Part shown: piece by piece, positions 2,985 through 31,795 of the stretch
Layout: every line of letters starts with the position of its first letter
Numbering within the stretch: the stretch's first letter is position 1
IMG/VR virus record: IMGVR_UViG_3300030339_000137
Coordinates: 1-36,477 of that record
Source of the DNA: a virus
Direction: 5' to 3' (one strand)
DNA: 36,477 nucleotides
Made by a program: the position numbers and the translations under genes
The notes under the pieces: generated by a model
Databases searched by the model: none
Told to the model about the DNA's origin: nothing
Seen by the model: the letters and a program-made list of their open reading frames with translations, nothing else

Positions 2985-4535
2985 ATGAACTTCCTCCAAG
3001 AGAAACTCATCAAACCACTGGCGCAGAGCATCGTAGCCTGGAGCGGCTTCTCATCCTTCGGCGGCGCCAACTACACCTCTAGTCGCTCCTTCGCTCCCTA
3101 CTTTCCGCTCGACGCCCGCCGCGAGGTGGACACCTGGACTCGAGTCGAGCTGCTTCGTAAGTTCAGGTGGTTGCGCAACAACGTCGGACTAGTGCGGCGA
3201 CTGGTGAATGGCACGGCTCGCTATTCTGTCGGCGGGGGCATCATTCCCCGCTCCACTACGACGGATGAGACCTGGAACAAACTGTCTGACGCCTGGTTCG
3301 ACAACTGGGCCTCCAACAAGAAGGTCTGCGACATCGAGGGGCGGCACAACTTCTGGGCCATGCAGCGGCAATGCGCCCGTGGTGTGGTCGGTGATGGGGA
3401 GATGTTCACGCAGCTCATCGGCAACATGGAGGGAACTCACCCCGACGACACTGTGCTCGGAACCCCGCAGTTGCAGAACTACGAGAGTCACGAGATCGCA
3501 GACAGCAGCTCCAAACCCGATGATACTGTCGACGGGTTGGTGCTCAACAAGTACAATAAGGCGACTGCCTACAGGGTCATCGTCGATCAGAGTGGCAATT
3601 ACGTCGACATTCCAGCCGAGGCCATGGTCCACGCCTACGACCCGGAACGCATAGGACAGCTTCGAGGCATCACGTGGCTGTACCATGGGGTGAACTCACT
3701 CATCGACATCATGGACCTGGGGGCACTCGAGAAGCAGTCCGTCAAGGTCCACTCCATGCTCGCCGTGGCCGTGAAGAACAAGGCAGGTGAGGCTGGAGGC
3801 ACAGGACTCACGGGCACTCTGCAGACACTGGTGACAAAGGCGCAGAAGCAGGCCAATCCCACACTGCAGCAGGCCACTCTAGAGAAGGCCTTCGGTGGCG
3901 GCATGATTCCTTGGCTCAACTCAGATGAGGAGCTGCAGCTCCTCACCTCCAATCGGCCCTCGCCGACTTTCACGGGCTTCCTGGACTGGCTGGTGCGCGA
4001 CATCGCCTGGGGATTCGGCACCTCTCCCGAGTTCGTGTGGTCTCTGGCGGGCATGGGGGGCGCGAATACGCGCATGATTCTGGAGGACGCGCAGTGGTTC
4101 TTCCAGGAGGTTCAGCAGATTGTGATCGAGTCCTGGTCCGCCCCCATTCGCACTTGGGTCCTGGCTAAGGCCATGAAGATGAATGAGCGCGACTCTGCCC
4201 TGGGCATCCCACGCTGCAAGGACCCTCAGTGGTGGAACTGCACCTGGCAGGTGCCCCCTCGCATCACGGTCGATCAGGGGCGGGACGGTCAACTCGAGAT
4301 CGATCGACTGCTCGTGGGCTTCAACACCATCGAGGACTACTGGTCCGCCCGCGGTCATGATGGGCGAGAGAAGATCGTGGCTCGTATTCGCGAAGTGAAG
4401 TTCGCGCAGGAGCAGTGCGCGAAGGAAGGGGTGCGCTATGAGGACGTATTCCCCCCGCAGGCCGGCGCGGCCGCGAAGACCAAGGCGGAGTCCGCACCTG
4501 GAGGCGGCGCGGGTGCGGCGGGGTTGGCAGCGTAG
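2985..4535 (+). CDS. Portal protein, lambda gpB-like family
   Basis: Portal proteins form the dodecameric ring at one capsid vertex through which DNA enters and leaves, and which nucleates head assembly. The protein has 516 residues, close to lambda gpB (533). Features typical of this family are an N-terminal stretch with FRWLRNNVGLVRRLVNGTARYSV-like arginine-rich text (about 60-83), a central MVHAYDPERIGQLRGITWL segment, and a GTSPEFVWSL motif with an aromatic-rich surround in the C-terminal third. The extreme C-terminus is Ala/Gly-rich. The gene sits between the terminase and the S49 protease, as in lambda. The leader is short (ctaactacc), without a Shine-Dalgarno. Confidence 0.92.
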   Translation: MNFLQEKLIKPLAQSIVAWSGFSSFGGANYTSSRSFAPYFPLDARREVDTWTRVELLRKFRWLRNNVGLVRRLVNGTARYSVGGGIIPRSTTTDETWNKLSDAWFDNWASNKKVCDIEGRHNFWAMQRQCARGVVGDGEMFTQLIGNMEGTHPDDTVLGTPQLQNYESHEIADSSSKPDDTVDGLVLNKYNKATAYRVIVDQSGNYVDIPAEAMVHAYDPERIGQLRGITWLYHGVNSLIDIMDLGALEKQSVKVHSMLAVAVKNKAGEAGGTGLTGTLQTLVTKAQKQANPTLQQATLEKAFGGGMIPWLNSDEELQLLTSNRPSPTFTGFLDWLVRDIAWGFGTSPEFVWSLAGMGGANTRMILEDAQWFFQEVQQIVIESWSAPIRTWVLAKAMKMNERDSALGIPRCKDPQWWNCTWQVPPRITVDQGRDGQLEIDRLLVGFNTIEDYWSARGHDGREKIVARIREVKFAQEQCAKEGVRYEDVFPPQAGAAAKTKAESAPGGGAGAAGLAA

Positions 4536-4546
4536 CTTCTACAGTT

Positions 4547-5383
4547 ATGAAAGACTACCCACATATCGTCAGTCAGGTGTACTCCGGCATCTGGTGCATC
4601 TTGCCGGAGACCTTCCAAGCCATCGAGTCCACTCTGCGGACGCACATGAATGGCTATCCCGGGCAGGTGGTGGCGTTGGACGCCGCCAAGCAGGAGAAGA
4701 AGCCCATGATGCGTATGAACGCCGGGCAGGGTATCGGGGTCCTCAGCGTGGAGGGCATACTCGGCAAGCGTCTATCCTCCCTGGAGACCCTGTGTGGCGG
4801 TGTCGACGTGAACGACGTGGTGAATGCCGCTCGCACGTTGGCCGCCGACCCCAAGGTGGGGACCATCGTGATGGACATCTCCTCGCCCGGCGGCGTGGTC
4901 ACGGGCATCCCCGAAGCCTATTCCGCCCTGTGCCAGATCGCTAAGGACAAGACTTTGATCGCCTACTCCGATACACAGATGTGCTCAGCGGCCATGTGGC
5001 TAGGCGCCGCGGCGCACTCTCGCTACTGCGCGCGCTCAGCGGACCTCGGCAGCATCGGGGTGTACACCGTACAGTTGGACAAGTCCAAGCAATTGGAGAA
5101 CGCCGGGGTGAACGTTCAAGCGGTTCAGGCGGGCAAGTATAAGACTGCGGGTGCCCCATGGCGCCCCCTCACTGCAGAGGAGCGCGCTCTGATCCAGTCT
5201 CGGGTGGACGACGTGTATAAGAATTTCACTGACGCGATGCGGGCGGCCTGCCCGGGCGTCTCCGACGACACCATGCAGGGGCAGGTGTTCCGGGGCCCTC
5301 GCGCTGTGGAGGCGGGTCTCGCCGACGGCACCTACGACTCTCTTGACGACCTCATCGCCGCTCTGCTTGACACGCAGCGTTGA
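4547..5383 (+). CDS. S49 family prohead protease (SppA/gpC-like)
   Basis: This is a ClpP-fold serine peptidase that probably matures the prohead by digesting scaffold and clipping head proteins. The 278 residues correspond to the C-terminal catalytic half of SppA or to lambda gpC. The core reads VGTIVMDISSPGGVV at about 104-118, followed by the nucleophile region QMCSAAMWLGAAAH with S147, then GSIGVYT, and the general-base region GKYKTAG with K199. S147 and K199 form the expected Ser-Lys dyad. The protein stops soon after the catalytic domain, and a separate coiled-coil protein follows 3 nt downstream. That arrangement resembles a protease and its scaffold encoded separately instead of as a nested pair. 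Confidence 0.9.
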   Translation: MKDYPHIVSQVYSGIWCILPETFQAIESTLRTHMNGYPGQVVALDAAKQEKKPMMRMNAGQGIGVLSVEGILGKRLSSLETLCGGVDVNDVVNAARTLAADPKVGTIVMDISSPGGVVTGIPEAYSALCQIAKDKTLIAYSDTQMCSAAMWLGAAAHSRYCARSADLGSIGVYTVQLDKSKQLENAGVNVQAVQAGKYKTAGAPWRPLTAEERALIQSRVDDVYKNFTDAMRAACPGVSDDTMQGQVFRGPRAVEAGLADGTYDSLDDLIAALLDTQR

Positions 5384-5386
5384 CCT

Positions 5387-5848
5387 ATGGACCTTGTCGC
5401 CATCAACAAACAGCTGACCGCCGACCTCGCCACCATTACCGGTGAGCGGGACCAGGCGCGAACCGACCTCGCCACCCTCACCGGTGAGCGCGATCAAGCA
5501 CGAACCGACCTCGCCGCGGCCAACACCGCGCGGGAGACCGCTGAGACCACTCTCACCACCGTGACCGGTGAACGGGACCAGACTCGCACCGACCTCACGG
5601 CGGCCCAGGAGCGCATCGAAGCGCTCAAGGGGCAAGTGGGCGCGCTCGAGGCGCGCACCCCTGGCGACGAGGCCCTGGCGGCCATCGCGGCGGCCGGCGC
5701 ACCCGCCGTCACCAAGGCGCCTAACACGGACGCGAACACCGGCAAGACGCTCCTCGAACAGTACAACGAACTCTCCGCCAAGGACCCGAAGAAGGCCGCG
5801 GAGTTCTACGCCACGCACGGGTATGAGAAGATCATGGGCGGGCACTGA
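5387..5848 (+). CDS. Coiled-coil scaffold candidate with 14-residue repeats
   Basis: This 153-residue protein lies between the prohead protease and the major capsid gene, the classic position of a head scaffold. Residues about 15-85 are built from 14-residue units (two heptads each), recognisable by repeated TGERDQARTDL blocks. An Ala-rich middle follows, and the short C-terminal domain contains LLEQYNELSAKDPKKAAEFY and ends in a basic/glycine tail. C-terminal ends of this style (tyrosine, DPK, AAEFY) are seen in capsid-binding ends of scaffolds and protease-linked scaffolds, but this is my reading and not a database match. A decoration protein is the alternative. The gene starts 3 nt after the protease stop. 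Confidence 0.65.
   Translation: MDLVAINKQLTADLATITGERDQARTDLATLTGERDQARTDLAAANTARETAETTLTTVTGERDQTRTDLTAAQERIEALKGQVGALEARTPGDEALAAIAAAGAPAVTKAPNTDANTGKTLLEQYNELSAKDPKKAAEFYATHGYEKIMGGH
5438..5605 (+). repeat. 42-nt in-phase tandem repeat inside the scaffold candidate
   Basis: The block ACCGGTGAGCG begins at 5438 and 5480, and a slightly changed copy begins at 5564. The intervals are 42 nt and 2 x 42 nt, so a degenerate unit occupies 5522-5563. Each unit encodes 14 residues, that is two heptads, consistent with repeat-driven lengthening of a coiled coil. Confidence 0.8.
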
Positions 5849-25975: not shown

Positions 25976-26196
25976 CGTGGGAGTAGGTGTTGGGCCTCCA
26001 GCAGAGGCTGATCTCGATGGGCCCTCGCGGCCTCGTAGTCAGACTTACTGACGCGGAAGTGCATGACTATATCCCCGCTCACCTCGTCGGAGGCCTCAGT
26101 CGCAGTCCACTCGCGGACCATTATGAAGCCCCCTGGCACGCGTCGGCACTCGCCGGGCGTGGGCAGGAAGCTCAAGGGGTTGGGTCGGTCGTTCAT
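25972..26196 (-). CDS. Small unidentified protein
   Basis: This 74-residue protein is not recognised. It reads as beta-rich in the centre (VPGGFIMVREWTATEASDEVSGDIVMHFRVSK) with a helical end (DYEAARAHRDQPLLEAQHLL). No signal, membrane or cysteine motif is present. It is coupled at both ends by ATGA overlaps, to the primase-helicase upstream and to the small helical protein downstream. This conserved tight packing is the main reason to treat it as a real gene. Confidence 0.55.
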   Translation of the reverse strand: MNDRPNPLSFLPTPGECRRVPGGFIMVREWTATEASDEVSGDIVMHFRVSKSDYEAARAHRDQPLLEAQHLLPR

Positions 26197-28316
26197 TTAG
26201 TCTTTCCTTTCTTGGAGGCGCGGTAGATTCGCCAGCTGCGTCCGCCTCCGTGGCCGCTGCGAAAGTTCTCGAGTGGCGCGCCCTGCGCCTGCATCTTGCC
26301 GAGCGCTCGTCCCAGGGCCTTGGCGGTGAGGGAGCGCGCGATGTCGCGGATAGCGTCATTGCTGAGCATCTCCGCCAGCAGCTCCGTGGCGCTGCCCTCC
26401 CAGTGCTCCTCCCTGCTCTCGTCGAAGTAGGAGCGTTTCCAGATGGCCAGCAGCTCTGACACCTGCGCGGAGTCACTGCTCTCCTTGGCCGTCTCGAGCA
26501 GACTGGTCTCGTGGTAACTCTTCACGCCGAAGCGAGCTGAGCCGACGCAGCGCTCTGGGATGGTCCAATCCAGGAGCCAGCGGCAGAAGAACGGTAGTTC
26601 CCTGGCAATCACCTTGTGCAGGTCCAGGGGAAAGTTCTTCTTAGTGCTGGCGGCCTTGAACAGACTGATCTTGTCCAGAGTGCTGGCCTCCATGTCGGGG
26701 AGGATGCGGATGGACTCCACGTCTGCATTGCAGGTCACAATGATGCGACCTATCCACGGGATGGACTGCTGGTCCTTAAACTTAGCGTTCCACTCGAAGG
26801 TGCGATTGGCGACGATCTTCTTAAGCATGCTCGAGAAGAGACCGTGCTTGCGCTGGTCAGCTGCTGGCATGGTGTCGTCGATCGTCCACAGACTGCTCTC
26901 GAAGAGCTCTTTGTTGAATTGAGTCTCACCCAGGAGATAGTCGCTGGCGTCCACATGCCCGCCCATCATAGTGGCCACTATGACGGTGGAGAGCAGCGTC
27001 TTGCCGAGACCGGACTCGCCTGCGATGAACACTGCCTGCCCGGGCTGCAAGTCACCCTGCCTGCCCGTCTCGTAGAAGCGCTTAAGGTAGGCCAAGAAGA
27101 AGTCGAGACTGTCGTGCGGCTCGAAGTAGCCGTCCAGGAAGTCGGCGATCCAAGGGAAGTCCTGCCCCCACTTCTGGGGTTTGTCGGCCGGCGGTAGGCA
27201 CTCAGCCGTGCTGGTGTTGAGGTAGCGACGCCCGAAGCGCGTCACGATGCCTTTCTGCTGATGCACGAACGGCACAGCCCCCTTCACCCGATTGTGGTCC
27301 TGAAGGGCCACGACGGCGCGGTCCACCTCACTGAAGGTGTCGCCCTTGCCGCAGAACGGACTGAGCCCGCGCTTCACCGCTAGATGCTTGCCTAGGTTAG
27401 TCTGATTGTGGCACACCCAAGTCGCGCTCGGGTCCTGCAGCCAGTAGTCCTTGCCGTCCCACCATATGTCCTCGATGGCCCCAGCAGTCTTCTCTGCCTC
27501 ATACTTAGTGACGAACGCGGCACCGAGTATGTCGCCCCAGGACATGAACTGCTTGGGCCCAGTGAAGCACTGCATGCCCGTATCGCGCACGATGGCCGCC
27601 GTAGGACAGTCAGCAGTGGGGTCCCAGAAGCGAAGTCCCCTCGCACCCAGCACGAAGTCCCCTCCATTCCATCGACGAGGAAACTGGCGCTCGACCTCCG
27701 CAGCTACGTCCTCGATGGGGATGTTGGGCCCCTCCTTGGTCCAGTCGCCCTTCTCACTGGCCTCGATGAGCCAACTCTGCCCGACGGTCGCGGGGATGGT
27801 GTCCTCTGGCCGATAGTCCCACTCAGTGCCCACCTCGTAATATTTGTCGAAGGCGTAGAACGCCTCCTCGTCGAAGCCCGGCAGCAGTCCCTGAAGGTTC
27901 AGCTCCTTACGGCATCGAGCCAGGAACTTCTTGGTGACCTGTGGAGTGTAGACGAAGAGCGGCTCCTCGAAGGCGAACACCAAGCGCGCTCCTCCGGAGC
28001 GAGTCCTGCTGATGCCTGTAGGACCAAACTCCGGTGTGTCCATCTCCTTGAGCATCTCATCCGACACCTTGGCGTCGTAGTCGATGACCAGTGCGTGGAC
28101 TTTGTAGGGCTTGTTGGTGGTGTTCACTCGCTGATGCGGATTCAGCCCCTCGTAGCCGGAGAAGAACAGGTGCTTAGTGGTGGGTTTGCAGCACCACGCG
28201 CGAAACGCCGCCTTGTCCATCGTCTTGTAGTTGCGCGGATAACTGGGCTCGTAGCTCCAAGGCTTGCAGGGCGTGACGTCGACGCCTTTCTGGTTTGATA
28301 GTCCAAAGAGGATCAT
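26193..28316 (-). CDS. Primase-helicase: AEP-like primase domain plus SF3-like helicase
   Basis: This 707-residue protein probably primes and unwinds the phage DNA. The N-terminal 330 residues resemble an archaeo-eukaryotic primase: ALVIDYDAK (75-83) offers the metal-binding D79/D81, and RTRSGGARLVFAF (104-116) the second motif. The C-terminal ATPase has Walker A GESGLGKT at 433-440 and Walker B LWTIDD at 476-481, with NRTFEWNAKFKDQ and RIIVTCNAD (sensor 1) as in DUF5906/D5-type SF3 helicases. Its stop overlaps the next gene. The leader has no Shine-Dalgarno. The primase assignment is less sure than the helicase one. Confidence 0.8.
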   Translation of the reverse strand: MILFGLSNQKGVDVTPCKPWSYEPSYPRNYKTMDKAAFRAWCCKPTTKHLFFSGYEGLNPHQRVNTTNKPYKVHALVIDYDAKVSDEMLKEMDTPEFGPTGISRTRSGGARLVFAFEEPLFVYTPQVTKKFLARCRKELNLQGLLPGFDEEAFYAFDKYYEVGTEWDYRPEDTIPATVGQSWLIEASEKGDWTKEGPNIPIEDVAAEVERQFPRRWNGGDFVLGARGLRFWDPTADCPTAAIVRDTGMQCFTGPKQFMSWGDILGAAFVTKYEAEKTAGAIEDIWWDGKDYWLQDPSATWVCHNQTNLGKHLAVKRGLSPFCGKGDTFSEVDRAVVALQDHNRVKGAVPFVHQQKGIVTRFGRRYLNTSTAECLPPADKPQKWGQDFPWIADFLDGYFEPHDSLDFFLAYLKRFYETGRQGDLQPGQAVFIAGESGLGKTLLSTVIVATMMGGHVDASDYLLGETQFNKELFESSLWTIDDTMPAADQRKHGLFSSMLKKIVANRTFEWNAKFKDQQSIPWIGRIIVTCNADVESIRILPDMEASTLDKISLFKAASTKKNFPLDLHKVIARELPFFCRWLLDWTIPERCVGSARFGVKSYHETSLLETAKESSDSAQVSELLAIWKRSYFDESREEHWEGSATELLAEMLSNDAIRDIARSLTAKALGRALGKMQAQGAPLENFRSGHGGGRSWRIYRASKKGKTK

Positions 28317-28546
28317 AGTTTGTGAAAGCCGGTTGCCGGCCCTTTGCCGGCGTTAAAGATCACTGCGTGGTAGCAGTCGTAGGCACCACCACCGCGCCAG
28401 CCCTTCGGCGCGCGACGGCGCCCCTCGGCCTCCCCCATGGCCTGCATCTGCTCAATGCGGTGACAGCGCTCGCATATCAGACCGGTAGGAGTCTTGACTG
28501 TCGCGAGCTGACCGCACTCGCATCGCTTGTTGCTGAAGTTTGGCAT
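28313..28546 (-). CDS. Small zinc-ribbon protein
   Basis: This 77-residue basic protein has a four-cysteine ribbon near its start: CEC at 9-11 and CERC at 25-28 (followed by H29), with a short beta hairpin between them. The remainder is basic, glycine-rich and disordered-looking (RRRAPKGWRGGGAYD). It is not a known family to me. It lies between the thymidylate-synthase-like gene (4-nt gap) and the primase-helicase (4-nt overlap). A nucleic-acid-binding accessory role for replication is plausible. Confidence 0.65.
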   Translation of the reverse strand: MPNFSNKRCECGQLATVKTPTGLICERCHRIEQMQAMGEAEGRRRAPKGWRGGGAYDCYHAVIFNAGKGPATGFHKL

Positions 28547-28549
28547 GGC

Positions 28550-29467
28550 CTAGACGGAGATGCCAGCCTTGATGACCGGATGAGACTGATAGTCCTTCAG
28601 ACACCAGTACTCGAGATCGATGAAGTCCAAGTCCTCGACAGTCTGGATCGCCGGGCTCAACTCCATGGTGGGCAACTGAGGCATAGGCATGCGCTGCAGT
28701 TGCTCCATGCCCTGCTGCCAGTGGTTGTTGTACAGATGCAGGTCCCCAAAGGTTACCACCAGCTCTCCGGGCGTGTAGCCGGACAGTCGCGCCAACGTGC
28801 TGAGCAGCATTCCGTACAAGCTCAGGTCGAAGGGGAGCCCTAGGAAGATGTCGATGCTCCGGCAGTATACTTGGAGGTCGAGTTTAGCCTCCCCACGCAG
28901 CAGGTCCTCCCGCACGTAGCACTGGAACAGCGTGTGACAAGGGGGCAGGGACATGTCGTCCACGTCAGTAGTATTCCACGCGCTGACCACATGGCGACGA
29001 CTGAACGGTTCGGTCCCCAAGTCGTGCACTAGCCGAGCTATCTGGTCTATGGCGAAGACTCGCGTCTCCCCATCGGCGGAACGAGCTCCCTGCCAGCAGC
29101 GCCACTGCTTGCCGTAGATCGGTCCGAGCTCACCGTTCTCCTTGGCCCACTCATCCCAGATGTGAACGTTGCGATCTTGCAGGAACTTCGTGTTGGTGTT
29201 GCCGCGGATCATCCAGCAGAACTCAGCGATCGAGCCCCGGGAGAACACCTTTTTGGTGGTGATGAGCGGAAAGCCTAGACTCATGTCGTGGCGCATCTGC
29301 GCGCCGAACACGGAGAAGGTGCCGGTGCCGGTGCGGTCGCCTCGGGGAAGTCCGGTGGACATCACGTGGTGGAGTAGCCGAAGGTACTCGTAGTCGACGT
29401 GATTGGCGGGGTGATACTCGCACAGACCTACCGGCGTGCAGGGGCGGATTCGAGATTCATGTTGCAT
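28550..29467 (-). CDS. Thymidylate-synthase-family enzyme, predicted dCMP-specific (methylase or hydroxymethylase)
   Basis: This 305-residue protein has the complete ThyA framework: RGDRTGTGTFSVFG (42-55), GPIYGKQWR (115-123), RRHVVSAWN (157-165), catalytic C177 in LPPCHTLFQCYV, R203-S204 in YCRSIDIF, and GDLHLYNNHW (241-250). The loop after this, FLGLPFDLSLYG, has D214 where ThyA enzymes have the Asn that hydrogen-bonds the uracil (E. coli Asn177, L. casei Asn229). T4 dCMP hydroxymethylase has Asp there, and the L. casei N229D mutant is known to prefer dCMP. So this enzyme likely makes 5-methyl- or 5-hydroxymethyl-dCMP. The codon is GAC at 28826-28828 (minus strand). Alternatively it is a ThyA variant. 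Confidence 0.9.
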   Translation of the reverse strand: MQHESRIRPCTPVGLCEYHPANHVDYEYLRLLHHVMSTGLPRGDRTGTGTFSVFGAQMRHDMSLGFPLITTKKVFSRGSIAEFCWMIRGNTNTKFLQDRNVHIWDEWAKENGELGPIYGKQWRCWQGARSADGETRVFAIDQIARLVHDLGTEPFSRRHVVSAWNTTDVDDMSLPPCHTLFQCYVREDLLRGEAKLDLQVYCRSIDIFLGLPFDLSLYGMLLSTLARLSGYTPGELVVTFGDLHLYNNHWQQGMEQLQRMPMPQLPTMELSPAIQTVEDLDFIDLEYWCLKDYQSHPVIKAGISV

Positions 29468-29623: not shown

Positions 29624-31795
29624 CTACTTCATGTAGTGCTCAGACGCATGGCCCTCTGCCCCGACGGGGCAGCCCTCGAGCCAATCGGGACAGACGGACA
29701 TCAGCTGCTCGATCTCCTTCACATCTTTGTCGGCGGTCTTCTCATCCACCTCGTAGACGCCCTCGTCGTGCACGTCGAAGATGCCGTCGAAACCGGCGAT
29801 AGCGCAGCGAAGCAGACATAGCGCGTAGACGTCTCGCGCGATGGCCTGGATCAAGTTCTCGAAGAGCAGTCCCCCGTAGAGTTTGCGGTGGTTGCCCCCG
29901 ATCTCTACCTGAGCCGCGTAGTTGCCTCCGATGTTCTTGATGTTCATGTACCGCAGCTTGCGCCCAGAGGGCAGCTCTACCTCGAGTCGACGCTCTGGCG
30001 CCCGGGCCGCCTTGATGAGCTCGTTGCGAAGGGAGTTCCACAAGTCCACGATCCACTTGGACTTCTCGCGGAAGTCGGCGACCTGCTTCTCGGCCTCCTT
30101 CGGTGAGATGTCGTAGTCTAATTCTGCACAGGAGTCCCGAAAGCGGGGAGCCCCGGCGCCATAGCCGAGACTGAGCACGCGGCGCTTGGCGATGAACTGC
30201 TTGTCTGGAGACTCAGCCTTCAGCGTGCCGAAGTCTCCCTTCCAGCCCATGGTCTCACGGGCGTGAACCTCGTAGATGCTGGCCCCGTCGCGGATCAACT
30301 GCAGGGTGTCCCAGCGCTCGCCTATCCACAGCTGGCAGCGAGGTTCGATCTGCGCCAGGTCGACGATGCCCAGCTTCTTGCCGGGCGGCGCGATGATGAG
30401 CTTGCGAATGTCGACGCTGAGTTTAGGCATGCGCTTGCTGGTGAACGGTTTGCGCATCTGGTTCTGTACATTTAGACCGGCGTCTCCGCTCCAACGACCA
30501 GTGTGCCCGCCGAAATACTTGATGCCGTAGGGCACACGGCCGTCGGGCTTAAGGCGACGCAGCATGGTCTTGATGCGCTTCAGGTGCATGTTGCCCTTGC
30601 GGAAGTCTCGCATGGCCGCTACGAAGGTGTACTTGTCGCCGTACTTGTCCTCCCACTGCTTGCACCGCCAGTCGTCCTCGGCCAGCGACGCCGGCACCTC
30701 GATGCCCACCTTGCGGCAGTGCTCGGCGACCGCAGTGGTGGCCAGCACGCCGTCGTGATCCGGCAGCGTCTTCGCCCATGGGATGTCCTTGCGGCACTTC
30801 CAGAGGAACTGCTCGAGGTCCTCGACATACTGCTCCGCCAGTGCCTTGTTGAGGTAGAAGCCACGATTGGCCCGAGTGTAGGAGAGGATGCTGATGGCCT
30901 GCTCCTCGATGGGCCACTCGTCGGCCTTGAGGTTCACCAGCTCCAGGGCGTGCTTGGAGTCGTCGAGGCAGTACTCGCACATCTGGTCCCACTTGCCGGC
31001 GGCCTTGATGTCCGCGCCAGTCTTGCCTTTGGCCCACGTCCGCATGTTCTTGGACACGTCGACGTCTAGCAGGGCCTTCATGGCCCCGGCCAGAGCGCGA
31101 GGCGCGCCGAAGTAGACGGACAGGTTGGCGGAGCAGTTCCAGATGCGCGGCAGGAAGTAGTAGGTGGCGGGGTAGAGTTCCATCAACGTCTCATAGACCG
31201 TGCGGTCGAAGGCGGCATTGTGACTCCACCACTCGTGGTGTATGATCTTCTCCCACGGTGCGCGGGCCGGGTCGCCCACGTAGGTGATGCCGTCCGTCGT
31301 CACGATGGAGACCAGGTAGGCCTCCCACAACGGGTGGTGACAGTAGGCCCAGTTGCCCAACTTCTTGATGGTGCACTCACTGGCGTCGTAGTAGGTCTCG
31401 AAGTCGATCATGGCCCGAGGCCGCTTGTGGTCGACGGCGAGTTTTATCTCAGTGAGCATCTCGCTGGCCTTCACCGGGATGGGCGCCTCATCCCCTCCCT
31501 CCACAGACGGCGCGACGGCGCGACGTCGGGTCTTGACCGCCTTCACCGGTGTAGATTTGCGGCGTCGGACCGGCGAAGCCGTCTCGCCCATGGGCAGTTC
31601 CATCTGTTCGGCGACCGCTCGCTTCGGGGTTCGAGGTTTTGGGGCGGTCGCGTTGAGCGCGTCCACATCCCGCTTCAGCTCACGCGCCCTCTTGAGGACG
31701 CTCGCGGCGTGGCGCTTCGGGGCGACGGGTTTCTTCGTGACGGTGGAGCGAGACTTCGTAGTCGCGGTCTTCTTGAGTGCGGCGGAGCGAGACAT
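29624..31795 (-). CDS. Family A DNA polymerase with 3'-5' exonuclease
   Basis: This 723-residue protein is probably the replicative polymerase. Residues 1-100 are a basic Lys/Ala/Pro/Arg-rich tail. The exonuclease has D131/E133 (MIDFETYY), D197 (NAAFD) and Y275...D279 (YCLDD). Polymerase motif A is VDLAQIEPR (478-486; D479, E484), motif B is KRRVLSLGYG (537-546), and motif C is HDE at 676-678. Counting back from the motif B tyrosine-glycine, K537 corresponds to E. coli Lys758 and L541 to Phe762, a Leu variant known from many environmental phages. A Shine-Dalgarno (gggagg) is present. Confidence 0.93.
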   Translation of the reverse strand: MSRSAALKKTATTKSRSTVTKKPVAPKRHAASVLKRARELKRDVDALNATAPKPRTPKRAVAEQMELPMGETASPVRRRKSTPVKAVKTRRRAVAPSVEGGDEAPIPVKASEMLTEIKLAVDHKRPRAMIDFETYYDASECTIKKLGNWAYCHHPLWEAYLVSIVTTDGITYVGDPARAPWEKIIHHEWWSHNAAFDRTVYETLMELYPATYYFLPRIWNCSANLSVYFGAPRALAGAMKALLDVDVSKNMRTWAKGKTGADIKAAGKWDQMCEYCLDDSKHALELVNLKADEWPIEEQAISILSYTRANRGFYLNKALAEQYVEDLEQFLWKCRKDIPWAKTLPDHDGVLATTAVAEHCRKVGIEVPASLAEDDWRCKQWEDKYGDKYTFVAAMRDFRKGNMHLKRIKTMLRRLKPDGRVPYGIKYFGGHTGRWSGDAGLNVQNQMRKPFTSKRMPKLSVDIRKLIIAPPGKKLGIVDLAQIEPRCQLWIGERWDTLQLIRDGASIYEVHARETMGWKGDFGTLKAESPDKQFIAKRRVLSLGYGAGAPRFRDSCAELDYDISPKEAEKQVADFREKSKWIVDLWNSLRNELIKAARAPERRLEVELPSGRKLRYMNIKNIGGNYAAQVEIGGNHRKLYGGLLFENLIQAIARDVYALCLLRCAIAGFDGIFDVHDEGVYEVDEKTADKDVKEIEQLMSVCPDWLEGCPVGAEGHASEHYMK

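Follow-up and report, generated by a model that had tools for sequence, protein, structure and literature searches.

A phage thymidylate synthase homologue with aspartate at the base-selecting position as a predicted dCMP 5-methylase

The locus and its product

The window analysed here is the whole 36,477-base stretch of a viral record, which is classed as linear and has no terminal repeats of at least 11 bases, and so may be a fragment. Its plus strand carries genes for terminase, portal, protease, capsid and tape measure, while the minus strand holds a replication block made up of an exonuclease (DUF2800), a family A DNA polymerase, a thymidylate synthase (TS)-like gene, a 77-residue Cys-rich protein and a DUF5906 protein. 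The features that matter for what follows are these, with E. coli TS numbering given for equivalent residues.

26193-28316, minus strand: DUF5906 (primase/helicase-like), a replication gene within this minus-strand block
28313-28546, minus strand: 77-residue protein with a Cys-rich (zinc-ribbon-like) N-terminus, downstream neighbour of the TS-like gene
28550-29467, minus strand: TS-superfamily protein of 305 residues, predicted dCMP 5-methylase (from the reading frame, Pfam and PHROG matches, residue alignment, tree and model)
28826-28828, minus strand: Asp214 codon GAC (E. coli N177, L. casei N229, T4 gp42 D179), predicted cytosine-selecting residue
28862-28864, minus strand: Cys202 codon TGC (E. 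coli Gln165), the other altered pocket residue, of a kind common in Asp-type enzymes
28937-28939, minus strand: codon TGT of the catalytic Cys177, in the motif PPCH
28946-28948, minus strand: Leu174 codon CTG, three residues N-terminal to the catalytic Cys, where TS methylases have Leu and T4 dCMP hydroxymethylase has Asp
29624-31795, minus strand: family A DNA polymerase (phrog_17, 6.6e-60), upstream neighbour of the TS-like gene

The reading frame at 28550-29467 is confirmed as encoding 305 residues from an ATG start. The 77-residue protein directly 3' of it (28313-28546, minus strand) bears the Cys motif CxC-x13-CxxC.

Membership of the TS superfamily is evident from the Pfam profile PF00303, which covers residues 27-305 (E 1.2e-90), from the catalytic Cys (C177), from the phosphate-binding Arg set (R45, R157, R158 and R203) and from the TS fold. 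The match to the thymidylate synthase family PHROG 160 is equally clear (3.8e-98), and the score of 328.8 against the NCBIfam thymidylate synthase equivalog barely passes the cut-off of 327. An AlphaFold2 model has a mean pLDDT of 80 and a pTM of 0.82, with low confidence confined to the N-terminus, one loop and the C-terminal lid, and thymidylate synthases rank top when it is searched with Foldseek (TM up to 0.91 by target). Residues retained from the canonical enzyme (E. coli numbers in brackets) include E82 (58), W104 (80), P116 (92), Y118 (94), R157/R158 (126/127), L174 (143), C177 (146), H178 (147), R203 (166), S204 (167), D206 (169), H244 (207) and Y246 (209), and the C-terminal tail, IKAGISV, is kept as well. 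A single-protein search of IMG/VR returned no close relative, and exact motif scans took the place of that search.

The nucleotide-binding pocket

The earlier note had drawn attention to the motif PFN of thymidylate synthases, which here reads PFD (D214, codon GAC), and to the Asp that T4 dCMP hydroxymethylase has at the same place; both observations stand, since D214 lines up with N177 of E. coli and D179 of T4 gp42. Its description of all core ThyA motifs as intact holds for the catalytic, phosphate-binding and cofactor residues but not for Gln165, which is replaced by Cys202. Crystal structures of TS have established that the equivalent of Gln165 donates a hydrogen bond to the pyrimidine O2 and that the equivalent of Asn177 reads N3 and O4 (PMC6479881). 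Thus two base-touching side chains are altered and not one: dUMP-specific ThyA has Asn177, pairing with uracil N3/O4, and Gln165 at O2, whereas the phage protein has Asp214 and Cys202. Alongside Asp214, the half of the active site that serves the reductive step remains TS-like (L174, W104, Y118, H178 and the C-terminal tail), which is the combination expected of a dCMP methylase.

It is already appreciated that exchanging Asn for Asp at the residue 177 site makes TS use dCMP in place of dUMP, with 5mdCMP as the product, and that modified environmental contigs in the MetaGPA survey mostly carry Asp there (PMC8670742). Asp-for-Asn as a marker of dCMP-using TS homologues is therefore published, and the phage gene adds one more case. 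D214 also falls in the column of Asp229, the residue engineered into L. casei TS N229D (PDB 1NJC/1NJD), an enzyme whose product was 5-methyl-dCMP according to the citation of Liu and Santi (1992) in PMC8670742. The phage protein shares with that enzyme the ThyA frame, PFD in the same column and the residues of the reductive step; L. casei TS N229D is, however, engineered and keeps Gln217, the equivalent of Gln165, where the phage protein has Cys. The MetaGPA homologues likewise are phage TS homologues with Asp177 (PMC8670742), but position 147, the second most diagnostic in that survey, is often altered in them too, while it is an unchanged His in the phage protein and in 23 of 29 strict Asp-type enzymes; their carbamoyltransferase and pyrophosphohydrolase companions are absent from the window.

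The loss of Gln165 could be followed across 94 Asp-type and 67 Asn-type proteins, that is, proteins with Asp or Asn at position 177, after redundancy was removed at 90%. Gln165 was lost in 47 of the 94 Asp-type proteins and kept in the other 47, as against a single loss among the Asn-type proteins (66 of 67 kept), which gives a Fisher p of 5e-13, uncorrected for kinship. Independent pairs drawn from the tree gave a trend of the expected sign that was not significant, the supported pairs being too few. Proven or probable cytosine enzymes have Met (T4 gp42) or Leu (AXL1 gp63) at this position, and Cys202 fits the pattern. NCBIfam calls the phage protein a thymidylate synthase, as automatic annotation would; residue 177, ideally considered jointly with residue 165, contradicts this, and if the prediction is right the pair offers an inexpensive way to predict from sequence which phages have modified cytosine. 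What is new here is that a second pocket residue differs as well, that cells almost never have Asp177 and that td becomes a candidate enzyme for VR7 and phage 133, taken up below.

Distribution and recurrence of Asp177

An exact scan for the motif DxFLGxPFD recovered 21 stretches in 84,980 cellular genomes, of which 5 were true TS genes, and 34 stretches in IMG/VR, of which 29 were; a looser motif gave at least 120 matches in IMG/VR. In a Pseudomonadota sample 113 of 200 genomes gave motif matches and every match besides the seed gene read PFN, as did all 44 matches besides the seed gene in a Patescibacteria sample (45 of 287 genomes). Asp177 is nearly missing from cells, and the cellular and IMG/VR scans taken together therefore mark it as a trait that recurs in phages. 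In maximum-likelihood analysis without the trait columns, the best tree has 8 changes of the trait and supported branches force at least 3; the Asp-type td of phage VR7, for instance, is sister to the Asn-type td of RB69. Asp177 in phages has arisen repeatedly by convergence.

The phage protein itself sits on a long terminal branch in an isolated position, outside every supported Asp-type clade, and its nearest rows by path are a mixture of Asn- and Asp-type sequences. Of the checks proposed in the earlier note, the alignment with ThyA and T4 gp42 places the key residues; the tree speaks neither for nor against the prediction by kinship. A kinship with the sequence L010_D, which had an SH-aLRT of 96 in a quick tree, was lost in a careful tree with more rows.

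So long and isolated a branch might also be expected of a gene that is decaying or has taken on another role, with Asp214 and Cys202 the products of drift in a gene not needed for dTMP. We regard this as highly improbable. The frame is intact, the catalytic residues and the C-terminal lid are kept, GC by codon position resembles that of the neighbouring genes, the fold is predicted with confidence, and the same two sites are altered in unrelated phages.

Residue 177 of td in T4-like phages

Gaprivervirus and Acinetobacter phage 133 are without known modification enzymes, yet encode homologues of DenB, Alc and dCTPase, and an enzyme not yet known has been suspected of modifying their DNA, while the DNA of RB43 and RB49 is canonical (PMC8056088). 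The cytosines of VR7 are reported, on the basis of restriction data, to be modified and unglycosylated (PMC6326788). Translation of td gives D177 in VR7 and D177 with M165 in phage 133, both without gp42; N177 in RB43 and RB49, both without a dCMP hydroxymethylase; and N177 in RB69 and JS98, both with a gp42 homologue. All six of these T4-like phages agree with the rule that Asp177 in td goes with modified cytosine, the modification of phage 133 being presumed. Loci of td with Asp177 lie at 4490-5350 (minus) in L182 (VR7), at 4746-5606 (minus) in L159 (VR26) and in L193 (phage 133). The residue-177 test thus names td as the enzyme that could account for the reported modification in VR7 and the suspected one in phage 133, which are culturable laboratory phages.

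These td proteins, from Gaprivervirus (VR7, VR26) and phage 133, resemble the phage protein in having a near-canonical TS frame with Asp177, L143, P92 and H147, in phages without gp42. They differ in their surroundings, which are T4-like and include DHFR, NrdA/NrdB and, as reported, a homologue of dCTPase, and the switch from Asn to Asp in VR7 td is separate from that in the phage protein.

The simplest alternative for the phage protein is an ordinary dUMP-using TS that tolerates Asp and boosts dTMP for phage replication. In its favour, the highest identities (about 50-52%) are to Asn-type phage TS (L055, L052), the equivalog cut-off is passed, though narrowly, all catalytic residues except those at 165 and 177 are kept, and the gene is the sole TS gene in the window, each Asp-type viral record likewise having one recognised TS gene. 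Against this stand the switch of engineered N-to-D enzymes to dCMP (PMC8670742), the almost universal Asn177 of cells, the joint alteration of two base-contacting residues and the way in which Asp in T4-like td tracks cytosine modification as reported. On balance, the alternative is unlikely.

Methylation or hydroxymethylation

Phages are known to disguise their DNA through TS-type methylation of dCMP, a strategy that has been little characterised. The Asp shared with dCMP-active mutants, together with the covarying residue 165, argues well for dCMP as the substrate of the phage protein, and it remains to weigh which group it would transfer to the base. Hydroxymethylases of the T4 gp42 type, which make 5-hydroxymethyl-dCMP for hmC DNA, are the best-known Asp-type phage enzymes; gp42 (PDB 1B49, 6A9B) shares with the phage protein the Asp at the cytosine-selecting position (T4 Asp179, here Asp214) and a comparable loss of Gln165, replaced by Met. 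Sequence similarity between the two is low, however. The ternary structure of the T4 enzyme revealed a signature for hydroxymethylation in two residues: Asp145, at the third position N-terminal to the catalytic Cys, and Ser94, at the second N-terminal to the Tyr; its D145N mutant is inactive, and the enzyme is without the TS C-terminal tail (PMC6400193). Where the signature calls for Asp/Glu and Ser/Thr the phage protein has Leu174 and Pro116, and it ends in a TS-type tail (VIKAGISV), whereas the putative hydroxymethylases sampled here combine Asp143 with Gly/Ser92 and Thr/Cys147. The window, moreover, holds no recognised glucosyl-, arabinosyl- or carbamoyl-transferase. A hydroxymethylase is thus very improbable here. 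Candidate dCMP hydroxymethylases, all Asp-type with Asp143, Gly/Ser92, Thr/Cys147 and Met/Phe165, were seen at L211, L242, L255, L271, L281 and L265.

Since the residues of the reductive step and the lid are retained, and the water-activating Asp/Ser pair that marks hydroxymethylases is not there, 5-methyl-dCMP and dihydrofolate are the predicted products, and these features lean towards methylation over hydroxymethylation. The gene probably encodes a dCMP 5-methylase on an ordinary ThyA frame, which would put 5-methylcytosine into phage DNA. The reading of Asp as selecting dCMP, put forward in the earlier note, gains from the mutants and the MetaGPA survey (PMC8670742), from residue 165, from gene co-occurrence and from T4-like td; its choice between 5-methyl- and 5-hydroxymethyl-dCMP narrows to the former, with the latter disfavoured by Leu174, Pro116 and the C-terminal tail.

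In the proposed mechanism, Cys177 would attack dCMP at C6, and Asp214 would pair with N3 and the 4-amino group such that cytosine is taken instead of uracil, while loss of Gln at position 202 would re-tune the pocket around O2. The carbon would come from methylene-tetrahydrofolate, and 5-methyl-dCMP and dihydrofolate would be released. Host kinases or unrecognised phage kinases might then convert 5-methyl-dCMP to 5-methyl-dCTP, which the phage family A polymerase could incorporate to give DNA with partial or full 5-methylcytosine, possibly resistant to C-sensitive host nucleases; phosphorylation, incorporation and resistance to restriction are the more tentative steps. If the prediction is right, the 5-methylcytosine phages would gain a member whose enzyme has a near-canonical ThyA frame.

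The enzyme of Xp12-type phages (Bosavirus/Pamexvirus), which have 5mC or restriction-resistant DNA, is another close counterpart, with gp63 of AXL1, a phage closely related to the 5mC phage Xp12, serving as its proxy. It shares with the phage protein Asp177, the loss of Gln165 and a location in the phage replication region, but differs in its distant sequence, in N143 and P147, and in the want of a canonical C-terminal tail. The AXL1 gene row runs DHFR, deaminase, TS, pyrophosphohydrolase, and none of these companions is recognised in the window. In L025 (Vibrio phage VAP7) and the AXL1-type phages, the Asp-type TS adjoins a gene annotated as haloacid dehalogenase or nucleotide pyrophosphohydrolase, which may be a dCTP-removing partner.

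Companion genes and the fate of 5-methyl-dCMP

Deaminase and pyrophosphohydrolase companions were described on modified contigs in the MetaGPA survey (PMC8670742). Among non-redundant viral records, the cytidine/dCMP deaminase family PF00383 occurred in 12 of 22 with an Asp-type TS against 3 of 24 Asn-type controls (p 0.004), and the PRA-PH pyrophosphohydrolase PF01503 in 8 of 22 against 1 of 24 (p 0.009); a PRA-PH match in the L010 contig (2.8e-4) fell under the curated cut-off and was left out of the count. These companions of Asp177 dCMP methylases, common but not universal, were not found in the window. As the earlier note had remarked of dCTPase, dCMP kinase and glucosyltransferase, none is recognised in this probable fragment, and the same is true of other dNMP kinases, dCMP deaminase and DHFR. 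With no dCTPase recognised, cytosine may be replaced in part, or else the absent genes may be encoded beyond the contig. Avoidance of palindromes in the window is weak (4-mers at 0.97 and 6-mers at 0.91 of expected) and uninformative on modification.

The association with deaminases allows a different destiny for the product. Deaminases of the dCMP deaminase family act on 5-methyl-dCMP. Conceivably, 5-methyl-dCMP is an intermediate, with dCMP methylated and then deaminated to dTMP, dUMP bypassed and the DNA left unmodified. Besides the co-occurrence of dCMP deaminase genes with Asp-type TS, two cellular enzymes with Asp177 and Pro147 speak for such a route: that of L166 adjoins a dCMP deaminase and an AAA kinase, and that of L161 a thymidylate kinase, DHFR and gatB. 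For the phage protein this route is nonetheless quite unlikely: no deaminase is recognised in the window, His147 is kept, unlike in L161 and L166, and phages with Asp enzymes of the VR7 and AXL1/Xp12 types are described as having modified or restriction-resistant DNA. Nor is it at all likely that the orphan Asp177 enzymes as a group (the phage protein and two in candidate-phyla MAGs) serve dCMP-first synthesis of dTMP and not DNA modification; were this true, the path from dCMP through 5-methyl-dCMP to dTMP by a deaminase would be a third dTMP route beside ThyA and ThyX.

The cellular-looking Asp177/Pro147 genes lie at 4547-5455 (plus) in L166, from a Parcubacteria MAG, and at 4070-4978 (minus) in L161, both in clusters of nucleotide genes. 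The make-up of these clusters suggests that 5-methyl-dCMP might there also be deaminated to dTMP, and because of this hint Asp177 alone does not prove modified DNA, even though incorporation as 5-methylcytosine is the preferred reading for the phage gene. A Robiginitomaculum MAG carries an Asp-type TS on one contig (L168; G029:C53:12521-13372) and, elsewhere in its assembly, two further TS genes of the Asn type, on contigs other than this one; its Asp-type copy is probably phage-borne.
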